Assembly: GCA_905478925.1 (NCBI GenBank)
Contig: CAJQKQ010000015.1
Span: forward strand, 18,098 to 82,097
DNA: 64,000 nucleotides
Direction of reading: 5' to 3'
DNA from: an uncultured Verrucomicrobiales bacterium
GTDB lineage: Bacteria > Verrucomicrobiota > Verrucomicrobiia > Verrucomicrobiales > Akkermansiaceae
Under the pieces are notes generated by a model. The model did no database searches and was not told the DNA's origin. It saw nothing but the letters and a program-made list of their open reading frames with translations. The translations under genes and the position numbers were made by a program. Shown here piece after piece: positions 6,142 through 64,000 of this stretch; position 1 is the first letter of the stretch; each line of letters starts with the position of its first letter.

Positions 6142-7671
6142 ATGAGCACCGAAATCGACCTCGACGAACACCCAGCAAAGACCAAGCGTCCCTATTTCCT
6201 GACATTTGTCGGCCTGCTTACCATCGCCGGACTCATCTCCTTGCCCTTCGTTGCAGGCGAGCCGGACGGTGATAAAATGCCCGATATCGTCCGTTTCCTC
6301 GGCCATTTCCATCCCTTCATCCTGCACCTTCCGATCGGTATTTTCGTCCTGATCCTCTGCCAGGAATTTGTCGCGCTGTTCTCCCGCCACAAACCATACC
6401 GGAGCATCCTGCCCGCGTTTCTCGGCGCCGCCAGCGCGGTCACGGCAATGCTTACGGGCTTCCTGCTCTACCAGGGCGGCGGCTTCGAGGGCAGCGAACT
6501 CGTGGAGGATCATCTCTGGGGCGGGCTGGCCTTCGCCTGTGCCGCCGTGCTGACTTTCATCGTCAAGATATGGAGCGCCGCACCGGGCTCGTCACAAGCG
6601 CTGTACCGCATCCTCGTCCTCGCCAGCGTCGGCGTGATGACCTACGCCAGCCACGACGGCGCATCGATCACCCACGGCAAGGACTACCTCACCGAATACG
6701 CCCCCGATTCGATCCGCAAACTGCTCGGCCTGGAGCCCAAGGAAAAAACGGAGGAAATCCCGGTCAAGCCGCTTGAGGAACAGATTGTGTATGCGGACAT
6801 CGTCCAGCCCATCCTGAACAAGCGCTGTGTGCAGTGCCACAAAGAAGGAAAATCCAAGGGCAAGTTCCGCATGGATTCCTATGAAATGCTCGTCAAGGGC
6901 GGCAAGGAAGGTGACGGCATCGAGCCGGGCAACGCCGAGGACAGCAACATCGTCTACCGTACCGAGCTTGACGAGGATGACGAGGAGCACATGCCGCCGG
7001 AAGGCAAGAAGGACATCGAGGATCACGAGCTTGCGATCATCAAGTGGTGGATCAGCGAAGGCGCGGATCCCGAGAAAACCGTCGCCGATCTCGACCTTCC
7101 CGACGAGATCCGCGAAGCGATCGGCAAGCTCGATCGCTCCATCTCCAAGGGCGGCGATGCCGGTACCGGCGACAAGCCCAAGGCCAACACGCCCTCTGAC
7201 GAACTGCGAGCCAAGGTCGCGGAGCTTTCCAAGGATTTCCCCGGCGGGCTGACCTTCGAGTCCCAGTCCACCTCCAACCTCACCTTCACCGGTGTCTCCC
7301 TGCGGAAAAACCTCACCGACGATCTTTTCGCAAAACTCGGCTCCGTGATCCCGAAGATGGTCACTGTCGATCTCTCGGCCTCATCGGTCACTGACGCGTC
7401 CGTCGCGCTGCTTGCCTCGGCCACGGATCTGCGGATGATTCGCCTTTCGGAAACCGGAATCACAGACGCAGCCATCGACACCCTCGTGAAGCTTCAGAAA
7501 CTCGAATCAGTCAACTTCTACGGCACCAAGGTCACCGACGAAGGCGTGAAAAAACTATCCGCCCTTCCCAACCTCAAGCGCCTCTATCTGTGGCAGACGG
7601 ATGTCACTCCCGCCGCCATCGAGGAGCTCCAGAAAGCGCTGCCGGAAGTGGAGATCGTGACCGGCATCTGA
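6142..7671 (+). CDS. Planctomycete-type cytochrome c domain membrane protein with C-terminal LRR-like repeats
   Basis: IVQPILNKRCVQCHKEGKSKGKFRMDSYEMLVKGG (CxxCH) after TM-rich N-terminus; C-terminal repeats LSASSVTDASVALLASATDLRMIRLSETGITDAAIDTL. Confidence 0.8.
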   Translation: MSTEIDLDEHPAKTKRPYFLTFVGLLTIAGLISLPFVAGEPDGDKMPDIVRFLGHFHPFILHLPIGIFVLILCQEFVALFSRHKPYRSILPAFLGAASAVTAMLTGFLLYQGGGFEGSELVEDHLWGGLAFACAAVLTFIVKIWSAAPGSSQALYRILVLASVGVMTYASHDGASITHGKDYLTEYAPDSIRKLLGLEPKEKTEEIPVKPLEEQIVYADIVQPILNKRCVQCHKEGKSKGKFRMDSYEMLVKGGKEGDGIEPGNAEDSNIVYRTELDEDDEEHMPPEGKKDIEDHELAIIKWWISEGADPEKTVADLDLPDEIREAIGKLDRSISKGGDAGTGDKPKANTPSDELRAKVAELSKDFPGGLTFESQSTSNLTFTGVSLRKNLTDDLFAKLGSVIPKMVTVDLSASSVTDASVALLASATDLRMIRLSETGITDAAIDTLVKLQKLESVNFYGTKVTDEGVKKLSALPNLKRLYLWQTDVTPAAIEELQKALPEVEIVTGI

Positions 7672-7691
7672 TCCGGGCTTTTGCTCAGGGA

Positions 7692-7796
7692 GACATCGGT
7701 GGGATTTCCAAAGAAATCTAAGGGTACACGGCTCTTAACCCGAAGTTTGATGCGGAAGCCGAGCGGAAAGCCATTGAGAAGGCTTTGGCGAAGTAA
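7692..7796 (+). pseudogene. Possible C-terminal gene fragment with in-frame TAA
   Basis: DIGGISKEI*GYTALNPKFDAEAERKAIEKALAK*; coding-like but orphaned. Confidence 0.35.
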
Positions 7797-7808
7797 GCCG
7801 GAAAGGAA

Positions 7809-8609
7809 CTACTTCTCCAGCTCCGTAAATTTCTCCGCGCCTTTAATTTCCAACCTCGTCCACGGCGCTTCCGGGGTGATGTCCGCAAGCTTCAGGGCGG
7901 CCGGTGAAATACCGGCGGCTTCCGAATTGTGAAGGGCGGCGACCACCGCTGCCGGATCGAGGCGGTTGAGCGGCTGGGAAACGTAGCCCGCGCCGATATC
8001 GACGCCGTCGCTGCTACGCGCCTCGAAGTGGAGGTGAGCCGGATAATGGCCACCTGCGGTGCCGACGGTGCCGATCACCTCACCGCGCGCGACGAGGGAG
8101 TCGAGGGTGCTTTTGATATCGAGGAGGTGAGCATACATCGTGTGGACCGGTTTCCCCTCCGGATCGCGGTGGGCGAGGACGACAATGTTCCCCCAGCCCG
8201 GCGAGGGCTCGCCGGCATACACAACCAGGCCGTTGCCTGCGGCGAAAACGGGATCGCCGAGATCCGTGTTCATGCCGCCGATGCCGTTCAGATCGTCGCC
8301 CGTGTGATGGCCGCCGCGGCGGTCATTCATTTCCCAGAATTTCTGGGCGTTGTAGGTGAGCGCGCCGTTTTCTGAACCCATCGGCGTGTCCATTTTCGTA
8401 ACGCTCGGGATCTGGTTCGCCTGCCAGGCGGAGAGAAAATGGAAACGCATGTCAGGGTTGCCGTTCTCCGGCATTTCGAAGGGCGTATCCCAATCCTGGA
8501 AGCCGACAAGCTTGACCTCGGCCACCCCCGTCTGCGAGCTACGCCACACCGCGTAGCCGACAAGTCCGGCGGCGATCACTAGGGTCAGGAGCAGGCGGGC
8601 GGATTTCAT
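7809..8609 (-). CDS. M23 family metallopeptidase
   Basis: MKSARLLLTLVIAAGLVGYAVW signal/TM; RRGGHHTGDDLNG..., TVGTAGGHYPAHLHFEARSS (HxH). Confidence 0.85.
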   Translation of the reverse strand: MKSARLLLTLVIAAGLVGYAVWRSSQTGVAEVKLVGFQDWDTPFEMPENGNPDMRFHFLSAWQANQIPSVTKMDTPMGSENGALTYNAQKFWEMNDRRGGHHTGDDLNGIGGMNTDLGDPVFAAGNGLVVYAGEPSPGWGNIVVLAHRDPEGKPVHTMYAHLLDIKSTLDSLVARGEVIGTVGTAGGHYPAHLHFEARSSDGVDIGAGYVSQPLNRLDPAAVVAALHNSEAAGISPAALKLADITPEAPWTRLEIKGAEKFTELEK

Positions 8610-8736
8610 TCCCTGATTACGGGGGGAAACGGGGGTTTGTTCAATGACGGAGATGGATCGGGTTTTGTTCCCGTGACAGGATTCATCAAACAAACGGCGT
8701 ATCCCTCCCGCTGTGGACAAATATGCACCAACCTAA

Positions 8737-8919
8737 ATGAAACCTCTATTCGTCGCAGCCTCCCTGATGGCTCTTGCCACAGTGTCCTCTGCCGAGGAAA
8801 TAACCGCTCCGGATGTGCCGCTCAATGTGGTCGGGGTTTTTCCCCATGGAACTTTCTCCGAAGCTGGCAGTGAGGGCGACTACACATTCAAGGGCGACAC
8901 TGCCGTTGACCTCAAGTGA
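8737..8919 (+). CDS. Small secreted protein, hypothetical
   Basis: [60 protein letters not shown]; signal peptide. Confidence 0.45.
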
Positions 8920-8945
8920 CGGGGACGGATAGGTTGAGTTTCACC

Positions 8946-9299
8946 ATGGATGCAGAACTGGAAAAAAGCGTAGCGGCACTCAGGCTCGAAAAGGTTGAGC
9001 GGCACATCTTCCTCTGCGCCCAGCCAACCGAAGCGAAATGCTGCGAACCCGCCGCCGGCGCGGCCTCATGGGATTTCCTAAAACGCCGGCTCAAGCAACT
9101 CGGCCTCTCCGGCAGTGGGGAAAAGGTGGCTCTCCGCACCAAGGCGGACTGCCTCCGCGTCTGCATGCGCGGGCCCGTAGCGGTCGTGTATCCCGAAGGT
9201 GTCTGGTACCACTCCTGCACACCGGAGGTGCTGGAGCGAATCATCCAGGAACATCTCATCGGCGGGCAGATCGTCGATGAATTTTGCCTGAATGAGTGA
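8946..9299 (+). CDS. (2Fe-2S) thioredoxin-like ferredoxin domain protein
   Basis: [16 protein letters not shown]...[43 protein letters not shown]. Confidence 0.85.
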
Positions 9300-9340
9300 T
9301 TGGAGGGGCGAACGCTGGTTCGCCCCTCCTCATAAAATGT

Positions 9341-10363
9341 TCACTCCGCCACCAGCTCCCGCACCAGCGCCGGACCCTGGTAAACGAAGGCGGTATAGAT
9401 CTGAACCAGATCCGCTCCGGCCTTGAATTTTGCTTCCGCATCCGCTTTTGAGGAAATTCCACCCACCCCGATGATAGGGATTTTTCCCGAGAACTCGGAG
9501 GCGAAGGCCGAGAGCACCACATTGGATTTTTCGAAAACCGGTTTCCCGGAAAGTCCGCCCGCTTCGTTCGCCCAGGGATGATCTTTCACCGCCTCGCGAT
9601 CTAGTGTGGTGTTGGTCGCGATCAGGCCGTCGAGCCCGCCGTCGAGGAAAGCTTTTGCGAGATCCGTCACCTGCTGCGGCTCCAGATCCGGGGCGACTTT
9701 GAACAGAATCGGCACATGCTTGCCGTGTTTTGCCACGAGTTTTTCCTGGGAAGTCTTCAACAATTCCAGCAACCGCGCCGTGGCATCCGCCGCCTGCAGA
9801 TCACGCAGTCCCGGGGTGTTCGGAGAGGAAAGATTCACCGCGATGTAATCCGCCACCGGGTAGGCTTTTTCCAGGCAGGCGAGGTAGTCGTCCGCCGCAT
9901 TTTCGTTTGGCGTGTCCTTGTTCTTGCCGATGTTGAAACCGATCGGGCCGGTGAAGGATTTGTGGGCGCGGACGTTTTCCACCCCCGCATCGATCCCGGG
10001 ATTATTAAAACCCATGCGGTTGATGATCGCCTCGTGCGGGATCAGTCGGAACAGGCGCGGCTTCGGGTTCCCCGCCTGTGGCCGCGGGGTGATCGTGCCG
10101 ATCTCCACAAACCCGAATCCCAGCCGCCCGAGGGCGTCGATCGTATTGCCCTCCTTGTCCAAGCCCGCCGCGAGGCCGATCCGGTTGGGGAATTTCAGAC
10201 CCATCAACTCGATGGGCTCGCTCTCCGGAAACGGCTTGGAAAGCAATTCCAGCAGCCCGGTCTTCTCAGCAAATCTCAGCCCGGCCATGCTCGCATGATG
10301 CGCCACCTCTGCATCGAGGGAGAACAGGATTTTGCGGGCGAGTGGGTAGGCGGCGTCGATCAC
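9341..10363 (-). CDS. pyrD: Dihydroorotate dehydrogenase (quinone)
   Basis: FPNRIGLAAGLDKEGNTIDALGRLGFGFVEIGTITPRPQ, VNLSSPNTPGLRDLQ, GADLVQIYTAFVYQGPALV. Confidence 0.93.
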   Translation of the reverse strand: MIDAAYPLARKILFSLDAEVAHHASMAGLRFAEKTGLLELLSKPFPESEPIELMGLKFPNRIGLAAGLDKEGNTIDALGRLGFGFVEIGTITPRPQAGNPKPRLFRLIPHEAIINRMGFNNPGIDAGVENVRAHKSFTGPIGFNIGKNKDTPNENAADDYLACLEKAYPVADYIAVNLSSPNTPGLRDLQAADATARLLELLKTSQEKLVAKHGKHVPILFKVAPDLEPQQVTDLAKAFLDGGLDGLIATNTTLDREAVKDHPWANEAGGLSGKPVFEKSNVVLSAFASEFSGKIPIIGVGGISSKADAEAKFKAGADLVQIYTAFVYQGPALVRELVAE

Positions 10364-10413
10364 GTGGCGATGCTGGCCGCTGCGTGAAAATTTTCAATGC
10401 AAACGGGGAAAGG

Positions 10414-10530
10414 ATCGCGCAAAGCCGCGAAGGAAGAGGATTTTATAAGGAACGAAGGAATCATTGAGGCCATCTTCTTTTCCTGCCTCCTTCATTCCAG
10501 CCTTTGCGCCTCGGCGGCTTTGCGCGCGAT
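10414..10530. repeat. Intergenic inverted repeat (GCGCAAAGCCGC type)
   Basis: ATCGCGCAAAGCCGCGAAGG at 10414 and CCTTTGCGCCTCGGCGGCTTTGCGCGCGAT at 10501. Confidence 0.65.
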
Positions 10531-10547
10531 ATTTCTGGAATGCCAGG

Positions 10548-10910
10548 TCAAGGGTGCCCTTTGTCGTATTCCTTGAGTCTTGTGTAAAAGTAAGGCCGGG
10601 TGTCGACGACCGCCCCATCGGCTTTGCGAATCTGGTAGGGCTTGCCGGAGAAAGAGGATTTCGAGGCGAGGCCGTCGATGAATTGCTCGGCGGTTTTGAC
10701 GCGCCTCCCGGCCTTGCCGAGCTTCATACGCAAGTGGCTACCAGCCGCCTTGGTGTCGTATTCGGTGCCGTTGCGGATGAAGACCGCGCCTTTGAGCGAC
10801 TCGACGTTGCTGATGAGATGCTCAATGCGGGCATCCTGTTTCGCATCACGAGCGTGGGCCGCGATCGGGATCAGGCAAAGCAGCAGGGCGAGGATCATAC
10901 GGATTTTCAT
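10548..10910 (-). CDS. DUF5329 family protein
   Basis: MKIRMILALLLCLIPIAAHA signal; ARIEHLISNVESLKGAVFIRNGTEYDTKAAGSHLRMKLGKAGRRVKTAEQFIDGLASKSSFSGKPYQIR. Confidence 0.7.
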   Translation of the reverse strand: MKIRMILALLLCLIPIAAHARDAKQDARIEHLISNVESLKGAVFIRNGTEYDTKAAGSHLRMKLGKAGRRVKTAEQFIDGLASKSSFSGKPYQIRKADGAVVDTRPYFYTRLKEYDKGHP

Positions 10911-11041
10911 GGGAAGAGGATATGGACGAACAACGATTCCACAAATGAAATCCTGGGTTCGCAGGAGCACGGCGAATATTTCTCGGGCTCCGTGGCGGTT
11001 GTCGTCGCGATTTAGAAATCGCTGTTCCTTTCCTGCAGGAA

Positions 11042-12289
11042 ATGACCTACCACCCTCGCGATATGCACAGCCGCCCGCCGAAAAAATTCGTCCCTACGCC
11101 TTTCGAATACCATCAGGAGATCGATCTGCGGATTGATTCGCTGACAAACCTCGGTGCCGGCGTCGGGCGGGTGGATGGCTGGGTGGTTTTCGTGCCGTAT
11201 GCGCTCCCCGGGGAGTTGGTGCGGACGAGAATTTTCCGCAACGACAAGAACCACTCGCAGGGGGATCTGGTGGAGGTTTTGGAGAAATCGCCGGATCGGG
11301 TGGAGCCGGGTTGCCCGCTCTTCGGCGAGTGCGGGGGCTGCCAGTACCAGCACCTCTCCTATGACAAGCAACTGGCGTGGAAGACGCGGCAGATCAAGGA
11401 ACTGCTGAAACACATGGCGAGCGAGGAGCGGGAGGTGAATCCCTGTGAAAGCACCGAACAGATCTGGAACTACCGATCAAAAATCACGCCACACTTCGAA
11501 AAGCCGATCGACGGGGTGGTGAAGGAGATCGGTTTCCTGAAAGTCGGGCGGCGCAACGATTTACTCGATATAACAAACTGCCCGATCGCGATGAAGGAGA
11601 TCAACGAGGCGCTGCCGGAGGTGCATGCCGATGTCCGGGCGAACGGGCGGCAGTTCAAACGTGGGGCGACGATCCTGCTGCGAGCAACGGAGGGACGAGT
11701 GGAGCGGAACCCGAAGGCGATCGCCCGCGAAGAGGTCGGTGGGGTGAAGTTCGACTTCGTTGCAGGAGAGTTTTTCCAAAACAATCCCTTCATATTGCCG
11801 AAGTTTACGGAATACGTGGCCGAAAAGGCACTGGCTGGCGGAGCGAAATACCTCGTGGACGCGTATTGTGGGGCCGGACTGTTCGGGCTTTGCCTGGCAG
11901 AGCGTTTCACAAAGGTGATGGGTGTGGAGGTGAACGAGGCGGGCGCGAAGTGGGCGGCGAACAATGTTTCCCTGAACGGTTTCGACAATGTCAGCATCCT
12001 TCAGGCGGATGCGGAGGCGATTTTTGAGAAAATCGATACCCCGGCTGAGCAAACGGCGGTGGTGATCGATCCGCCGCGAAAAGGCTGCACGCCGGAATTC
12101 CTCGCACAGTTGGTGGAATACGCACCGGAGCGGGTGGTCTACGTCTCCTGCGATCCGGCGACGCAAGTACGTGATTACAAGATACTAAGGGAATCCGGAT
12201 ACGTGCTGGAGGAGGTGCAACCCTTCGACCTTTTCCCCCACACCCGCCATGTGGAGTGCGTAATGGTGCTGGTGAAAGGCCTGATTTGA
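11042..12289 (+). CDS. rlmD: Class I SAM-dependent RNA (uracil-5-)methyltransferase, TRAM domain (RlmD/RumA family)
   Basis: TRAM-like N-term; CPLFGECGGCQYQHL Fe-S motif; DAYCGAGLFGL; VIDPPRKGC; VYVSCDPATQVRDY. Confidence 0.85.
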   Translation: MTYHPRDMHSRPPKKFVPTPFEYHQEIDLRIDSLTNLGAGVGRVDGWVVFVPYALPGELVRTRIFRNDKNHSQGDLVEVLEKSPDRVEPGCPLFGECGGCQYQHLSYDKQLAWKTRQIKELLKHMASEEREVNPCESTEQIWNYRSKITPHFEKPIDGVVKEIGFLKVGRRNDLLDITNCPIAMKEINEALPEVHADVRANGRQFKRGATILLRATEGRVERNPKAIAREEVGGVKFDFVAGEFFQNNPFILPKFTEYVAEKALAGGAKYLVDAYCGAGLFGLCLAERFTKVMGVEVNEAGAKWAANNVSLNGFDNVSILQADAEAIFEKIDTPAEQTAVVIDPPRKGCTPEFLAQLVEYAPERVVYVSCDPATQVRDYKILRESGYVLEEVQPFDLFPHTRHVECVMVLVKGLI

Positions 12290-62345: not shown

Positions 62346-62489
62346 AGGAGCGAGGAGCGAGGAGCGAGGAGCAAGGAGCAAGGAGCAAGGAGCAAGGAGC
62401 AGAGATCAGAGAGCAGAGAGCAGAGAGCAGAGAGCAGGGAGCAGGGAGCAGGGAGCAGGGAGCAGGGAGCAGGGAGCTAAGAGCTTAGA
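62343..62489. repeat. Heptamer tandem repeat array, 21 units
   Basis: GCGAGGA x4, GCAAGGA x4, GCAGAGA, TCAGAGA, GCAGAGA x3, GCAGGGA x6, GCTAAGA, GCTTAGA. Confidence 0.95.
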
Positions 62490-62845
62490 CTTTCCGAAGC
62501 CTGATCGCGTGGGGCAAAGCCCTTTACGCGATTGTAACAAGTGATATCAGCGATGGCACGTCGCCCGCCAAAGCTACCCGGAAAACATCTGATATACACA
62601 CGCTGCACAAAAAATCCCTTGCTAAATCAAGGCTTTTTCCTCCAATCTCCATAAACAGGTTTCTCGGATATGACTCACTGAGAGCCTACTAATAAGTAGG
62701 CTGTTCGGCGGAGAAACAGCCCGATGGAAACTAAATCTGAACCCCTTTCAACCCCGGGTCGCCGGTGAAGCGATGGCCGCAGGATTCAAAGCAATCTCCT
62801 AACAGTACATTCCTTCGCTTATCGCCGGCCCATCCCTGAAGATTC

Positions 62846-64000
62846 ATGTATCCGATCTCCTATAAAGAACCGACCGGCGCAGCGACATCTGGAGGTGCAT
62901 GCCCTTATGCCGCGAGTGTTTTCGACCATGCGCGTAGCTGGCGGGCTGACGAGGCTTGGAAGCTAGTTCAAGCCATGTCGGACGGCTCCGGCGGGATGAC
63001 GCTGGGCGATGCCGCTCGCCTGGCGTGGCGCGAATCAGTGCGTTGCATAGGACGTCTGCATTGGCGCTCTCTGCAGGTCGTCGACGCCCGCTCGCTGGAT
63101 GATGCCGACGAGGTTTTCGAGGCCTGTGTCGAGCACCTGCGCGTAGCCACCAACGGTGGTCGCATCATTCCAACGCAGACGGTTTTCTCCCAGTGGCGGG
63201 AAGGGCATCCGAGCATTCGGATCTGGAACCACCAGCTGATCCGCTACGCCGGATACCGCCACGCAGACGGCTCGGTGTTGGGCGACCCCATGAACGTGGC
63301 CTTCACCGAGCGGGTCCGCTCGCTCGGCTGGGCGCCATCGGCCGACCCCGGACGCTTCGATTTGCTGCCTTTGGTCATTGAGGTGGACGGACGGGTTATC
63401 GTCCGCGAATTGCCGCGCGAGGTCGTGCTGGAGGTCGAGCTCGAGCACCCTGAGTATCCTTGGTTCGCGAAACTCGGGCTGCGGTGGCACGCCGTGCCGG
63501 CGATCACAGACATGATGCTGGTCACCCTAGACGATGTCTTTCCCTGCGCCCCCTTCAACGGTTGGTATATGGGAACCGAAATCGGTGCCCGCAACCTCGG
63601 CGACGCCAACCGCTACAACCTCCTACCAGAAGTGGCAGAGCGGCTCGGATTGCAGCGTGACAGCGACCTGTGGAAGGACCGTGCCCTGCTCGTGCTCAAC
63701 GAAGCCGTATTGCATTCCTTCGCCCGTGAAGGTGTGCGCATGGTGGACCACCACCAAGCTTCGCGCGAATTCCTCGCCCACTGTGAGCGCGAGCAATCCC
63801 AGGGCCACGAAGTACAGGCCGAGTGGTCATGGATCGTGCCGCCCATCTCCGGCTCGTCCACGGGTGTTTTCCATCGCCTTTATCCGTTGCAACCGCGATT
63901 GCCAAACTTGCTGCCACAAGTGGAGGCATGGAAAGATCACGAAGGGACAGCTCAAACTGCACCCTTAAGCACCCCTGAGAATAAAAACAAGAATGCCGAA
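62846..64000 (+). CDS. nos: Bacterial nitric oxide synthase oxygenase, 3' end beyond window
   Basis: 385 open codons from ATG 62846: WRESVRCIGRLHWRSLQVVDARSLDDADEVFEACVEHLRVATNGGRIIPTQTVF, IWNHQLIRYAGYR, GRFDLLPLVIEV, LRWHAVPAITDMML, FPCAPFNGWYMGTEIGARNLGDANRYNLLPEVAERLGL, SDLWKDRALLVLNEAVLHSF, VDHHQASREFLAHCERE, WSWIVPPISGSSTGVFHRLY; absent from ORF track. Confidence 0.95.
   Translation, partial: MYPISYKEPTGAATSGGACPYAASVFDHARSWRADEAWKLVQAMSDGSGGMTLGDAARLAWRESVRCIGRLHWRSLQVVDARSLDDADEVFEACVEHLRVATNGGRIIPTQTVFSQWREGHPSIRIWNHQLIRYAGYRHADGSVLGDPMNVAFTERVRSLGWAPSADPGRFDLLPLVIEVDGRVIVRELPREVVLEVELEHPEYPWFAKLGLRWHAVPAITDMMLVTLDDVFPCAPFNGWYMGTEIGARNLGDANRYNLLPEVAERLGLQRDSDLWKDRALLVLNEAVLHSFAREGVRMVDHHQASREFLAHCEREQSQGHEVQAEWSWIVPPISGSSTGVFHRLYPLQPRLPNLLPQVEAWKDHEGTAQTAPLSTPENKNKNAE

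Follow-up and report, generated by a model that had tools for sequence, protein, structure and literature searches.

A nitric oxide synthase gene that very probably travels on an integron gene cassette among Verrucomicrobiota

Bacterial nitric oxide synthases (NOS) of type I, such as the Bacillus subtilis enzyme (2flq), consist of the oxygenase only. Fused bacterial NOS also exist, and the Sorangium enzyme is one of them. The NOS of Synechococcus PCC 7335 is likewise of the fused type (PMC9500659). Gene cassettes are moved by the integron integrase, whose crossover takes place within GTTRRRY, where the cut separates the first base from the second (PMC8876359), and integrons are known in Verrucomicrobiota (PMC8618304). 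The cassettes of chromosomal integrons (toxin-antitoxin, SUKH and others) have a single ORF with an attC site and a GTT junction, and they form arrays beside intI with toxin-antitoxin and small-ORF neighbours. Here we describe a NOS gene at the end of a window of 64,000 nucleotides from an uncultured member of the Verrucomicrobiales (Akkermansiaceae). We consider it very probable that this is a single-domain NOS on an integron cassette, which arose once, spread across Verrucomicrobiota and lies beside sdhCA in the window genome.

With B. subtilis NOS the window enzyme has the oxygenase domain, the heme cysteine, the substrate glutamate, the WxWxVPP region, the bacterial-type isoleucine gate and the absent reductase in common. 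Unlike that enzyme, it appears to ride on an integron gene cassette, and its clade is without a solved structure. The cassette in turn has the single ORF, the attC, the GTT junction and, in some of its relatives, the array beside intI with toxin-antitoxin and small-ORF neighbours of chromosomal integrons; what differs is the cargo, a nitric oxide synthase. The enzyme and its vehicle are both of known kinds, and no literature joining NOS with gene cassettes and attC was found in a search that was thin on subscription journals. The only publication found with both NOS and integron integrase appears to be an unrelated review.

The NOS frame has no stop up to the last base of the window, which is also the last base of the contig (C15:82097, contig of 82,097 bases) and the point at which extension within the window's own genome ends; the last 121 bases of the contig had no other real match in the window genome. 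The ORF track lacks the frame because its end lies beyond the contig, as the initial annotation had suspected. Its reading of the gene as a NOS oxygenase also holds. The frame matches PF02898 with an E-value of 5e-125 and 417.5 bits (cut-off 22.7) over profile positions 54–362 of 362, the first 53 positions being unmatched here as in many relatives, and it matches 2flq with an E-value of 3e-97. Counted from the first methionine, the heme cysteine is Cys67 (RCIGR), the substrate glutamate Glu245 (GTEIG), WSWIVPP covers residues 327–333 and VFHR residues 341–344; C67, E245, W327/W329 and F342 align with 2flq and iNOS. Ile220 stands where bacterial-type NOS have the isoleucine of the NO gate, a residue named in a review (PMC9500659). 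By analogy with the family, in which the oxygenase forms NO from arginine and is fed by host flavoproteins (PMC9500659), the window NOS would oxidise arginine to citrulline and NO, with the host's own flavoproteins as the likely electron donor. The N-terminal residues (about 50) are unrelated to the Bacillus N-terminus and contain a CP(Y/H/L) motif. This motif is kept in Verrucomicrobiota NOS, the rest of the N-terminus being variable (62846–62990; L035, L037, L051), and it is possibly a heme-related or metal site.

Scanning genome contigs revealed six further copies of the gene with 90–93% amino acid identity, all in metagenome-assembled genomes (MAGs) of Verrucomicrobiota. Their hosts belong to the Verrucomicrobiia (L045), the Verrucomicrobiales (L046, L047 and L049), the Opitutae (L048) and the Opitutales (L050). 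Remoter relatives were found at 78% (L055) and 68% (L051) identity. No NOS was found in viral contigs, and plasmids yielded only relatives below 60% identity.

The six copies bear directly on the end of the frame, which the initial annotation had regarded as a linker that might lead into a fused reductase or other partner domain. A tail beyond the Pfam domain does exist (residues 364–385) and it is conserved as DNA; the interpretation as a linker has to be given up. In L045 and L046, which share the ENKNKNAE tail, the protein runs to ENKNKNAEQG and five further residues and is complete at 392 amino acids, seven codons past position 64000. The proteins of L047, L049 and L050 end at 377–382 amino acids and that of L048 at 378; the stops of all close relatives fall at 373–392. 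Since relatives with the same tail stop soon after the NOS domain, the extension, judging by these copies, amounts to about 28 residues and comes from translation of the 3´ region of the cassette. A frame continuing past 64000 into a reductase, globin or other domain could be imagined because it is open at the contig end and because fused bacterial NOS exist, such as that of Synechococcus PCC 7335 (PMC9500659). However, L045 and L046 are identical to the window over its last 24 bases, and their stops lead us to expect one only a few codons beyond 64000, the outcome that the initial annotation had named as refuting a fusion. No relative examined has a partner domain in the NOS chain, all being oxygenase-only, and their open frames never exceed 440 amino acids. 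The probability of such a fusion is thus next to nil, and the window NOS is predicted to be a single-domain, bacterial-type oxygenase of about 392 amino acids in total.

The features at the window end are listed in Table 1.

Table 1. Features of the NOS cassette in the window
Feature	Position	Strand	Basis
Nitric oxide synthase oxygenase	62846..64000	+	385 codons to contig end; PF02898, 2flq, relatives
GTT triplet at the 5´ cassette junction (integron crossover point)	62703..62705	+	Start of homology to other copies
Cassette leader, Shine-Dalgarno-like GGAG and 14-codon upstream ORF	62706..62845	+	Comparison with relatives
Left flank of cassette, about 210 bp ending in GTT	62494..62705	+	Second copy on contig C93
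Cassette 3´ end AATAAAAACAAGAATGCCGAA	63977..64000	+	Identical to lead-in of attC in L045, L046, L048

At the 5´ side, the window becomes homologous to L046 and L047 from 62703 onwards and to L045 from 62705 onwards, inside the GTT. The upstream ORF of the leader (METKSEPLSTPGRR, 62724–62768) has the best Shine-Dalgarno sequence of the cassette. Its start codon opens the NOS frame itself in L048, L049 and L050, because about 107 bp of the leader are absent there; METNS... is the NOS N-terminus in these three. A leader match in another genome (G084) was considered as a further NOS cassette and rejected, being only a short repeated sequence. At the 3´ side, AATAAAAACAAGAATGCCGAA is also the start of the hairpin site in three of the copies, and the last six window bases (GCCGAA) are the first six of the attC, a site that the initial annotation had not suspected behind the tail. 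We infer that a whole attC follows the window NOS, about six bases of which are on the contig. Several points count against the cassette reading: this truncation, the integrase looked for and not found in the window genome, the left side with sdhC at 430 bp in place of an attC or an adjoining intI, the lost attC side of L047, and the fact that all hosts are MAGs.

An attC hairpin lies directly 3´ of NOS in L045, L046, L048, L049 and L050. L048 and L050 have an attC on both sides of the gene (9905–9965 and 11143–11199 in L048; 848–916 and 2378–2436 in L050), and L045, L046 and L049 have one, at the 3´ side. L047 keeps the 5´ junction and has lost the attC side; thus, some copies are probably fixed. 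Five short sites, four behind NOS and one behind a HigBA toxin-antitoxin pair, were compared and show an R´´/R´ stem (AAC/GTT), an L´´/L´ stem and two extrahelical bases, with 94.3% of the cells paired in the common structure. Compensatory changes on both sides were found in 10 of 18 pairs, compared to a mean of 5.1 after shuffling (1 of 500 shuffles was as high), and the covariation score was reached by none of 500 shuffles. Sliding the pairs by one to three columns destroyed it, but this control is biased towards the structure, which was drawn from these same sequences; more weight falls on the double changes. A covariance model built from the five sites also detected sites outside the training set, namely L049 11416–11510 (E 5e-7) and the site at 848 in L050 (1e-4), which has the canonical GCCTAAC...GTTGGGT and is located upstream of NOS.

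The 166-kb contig of L048 has the order intI on the minus strand (7498–8469; TIGR02249, 328.5 bits with a cut-off of 265), BrnT-like cassette, attC, NOS (9980–11116), attC, small ORF and later lysS, so that NOS comes second in the row of cassettes that follows the integron integrase. Neighbouring cassettes were found in L046, where NOS stands between two identical HigBA cassettes, and in L050, where a SUKH gene precedes it; toxin-antitoxin cassettes thus adjoin NOS in L046 (HigBA) and L048 (BrnT-like). The window copy has sdhC to its left and the contig end to its right. The 3´ end of the NOS attC in L045 is immediately followed by a group II intron (RF02005, 72.6 bits) with a reverse transcriptase (TIGR04416, 354 bits). 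This is the placement of group IIC-attC introns, which target attC sites (PMC8876359), the L045 intron being classed here to group II only. In L049, the NOS cassette is closely preceded by an IS110-type transposase gene (8669–9814). The left flank in L045 (1–124) is similar to that of L049, both end at the GTT position of the cassette, and both resemble an IS1111-attC insertion. IS1111-attC elements target attC sites. The term occurs in PMC11187229.

One clade of the NOS tree (96/87) unites the NOS genes of the seven cassettes, whose hosts represent three or more families. Among them, NOS dS is 0.12–0.25, whereas the SdhA of the same hosts is 69–86% identical with dS from 1.1 to saturated. It follows from this discrepancy that the NOS cassette has spread horizontally among families and orders of the Verrucomicrobiota. 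The dN/dS of 0.20–0.39 among the cassette copies points to purifying selection and argues for function. One could regard the gene as an ordinary chromosomal NOS, vertically inherited and with an incidental attC-like sequence, given that about a third of the sampled relatives carry some NOS and that the window copy adjoins the core sdh operon. We assign barely any probability to this, since NOS genes from the window's own genus are placed far from the cassette clade, copies in other families and orders show the low dS given above and have different neighbours and attC at their edges, and the hairpin shows compensatory changes.

It might also be argued that misbinned contigs only simulate a spread across taxa, as every host is a MAG and the contigs of L045 (4.2 kb) and L046 (5.6 kb) are short. 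The window, however, belongs to a contig of 82 kb, the sdhA and sdhC of which are typical for the genus, L048 is on its long contig together with lysS and the integrase, and L047 is on a 61-kb contig. Moreover, the NOS copies differ by 6–10% of bases and therefore do not stem from one contaminant, which leaves misbinning with a very small probability. Outside the cassette clade, the nearest sequences are the NOS of G387 and G391, two genomes that share their family with the window genome. The simplest history would be a single capture of an Akkermansiaceae-type chromosomal NOS as a cassette, followed by spread under purifying selection.

Parts of the integron machinery are present in the window genome. 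The covariance model, which is better suited here than a sequence pattern, found attC sites at C76:47227–47315 (E 4e-7) and C67:504–591 (E 1e-3), and both fold as attC. An exact 27-base arm occurs three times in the genome, two of the copies being 447 bp apart on C76, and a cassette-like DUF805 ORF lies on C76 between the attC sites and the contig end. A pattern search for the short NOS-type attC gave one match (C44:87516), probably by chance. No integron integrase was found in the window genome, a MAG of about 94% completeness in 145 contigs. Integron integrases are present in 48 of 74 species genomes of the genus, several of which have two to four copies, and in five of the seven genomes with the NOS cassette.

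The left flank of the window cassette is located 430 bp from sdhC with no intI beside it; a scan found no attC immediately left of the cassette, and the flank itself is not an attC. The genome contains it at two or more other places: a 92% identical copy (C93:1469–1678) ends at the same GTT and is followed by an unrelated 449-codon gene, and contig C32 ends inside a partial third copy (C32:46139–46211). In another genome (G030), an element 69% similar to the flank precedes yet another gene. An attI or a preferred landing site would look like this, with copies ending at the same GTT before different genes, and the flank is probably an attI-like or secondary landing site. Possibly, it is a dispersed attI-like site without intI. 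Because the flank recurs elsewhere, once with an unrelated gene at the same GTT, NOS, as an adaptive cassette circulating in Verrucomicrobiota, might have reached one of several dispersed attI-like sites lacking intI by delivery in trans; we hold this tentatively, at somewhat below even chances.

Within the cassette explanation, the window copy could also be a dead, immobile relic at a secondary site in which NOS still works. The missing integrase, the left flank that is not an attC and the loss of the attC in L047 are in line with this, but the 3´ lead-in to the attC is intact and identical to that of mobile-type copies and the genome has other attC sites, which makes a relic possible but less likely than not. 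Judged by its sites, the NOS cassette would still be mobile.

The preferred reading of a spreading integron cassette would work as follows. The unit that the integron integrase recombines at the GTT would consist of the NOS gene, a short leader before it that contains a ribosome-binding site, and the attC hairpin, mobility by IntI being suggested by the sites. Having arisen once, the cassette would have been carried by integron recombination between families and orders, and in the window genome it would have come to lie by the sdhCA operon, behind the attI-like or secondary site. The selective benefit is probably protection by NO against stress or antibiotics, as suggested by work on Bacillus and other bacterial NOS. 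Bacterial NOS are scattered without a clear mechanism, and a cassette moving a complete, selected NOS between orders would be a concrete vehicle. If this is true, NOS as an adaptive cassette helps to generate the patchy distribution of bacterial NOS, and an enzyme of redox signalling and stress protection joins the functions traded by integrons, beside toxin-antitoxin and resistance genes. A transferred NOS would have to work with whichever electron donors the new host has. The role of NOS in non-pathogens would become testable by asking what the transfer of this one gene gives the host.

Further repeated sequences were seen around these sites. Contigs C67 (1–150) and C93 (1–149) of the window genome start with the same 150 bp (95%), next to cassette-like genes; this start is reminiscent of a group II intron 3´ end, and Rfam called no group II intron at these two places. 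L136 730–855 is likewise a position of the 210-bp flank sequence. A low-complexity run of GAGCAAG/GAGCAGG/GAGCAGA units (62350–62480), also present beside the flank copy on C93, adjoins repeated ATCGCGTGGGGCAAAGCCCTTTACGCGAT hairpins, which occur in many copies in the genome and the genus.
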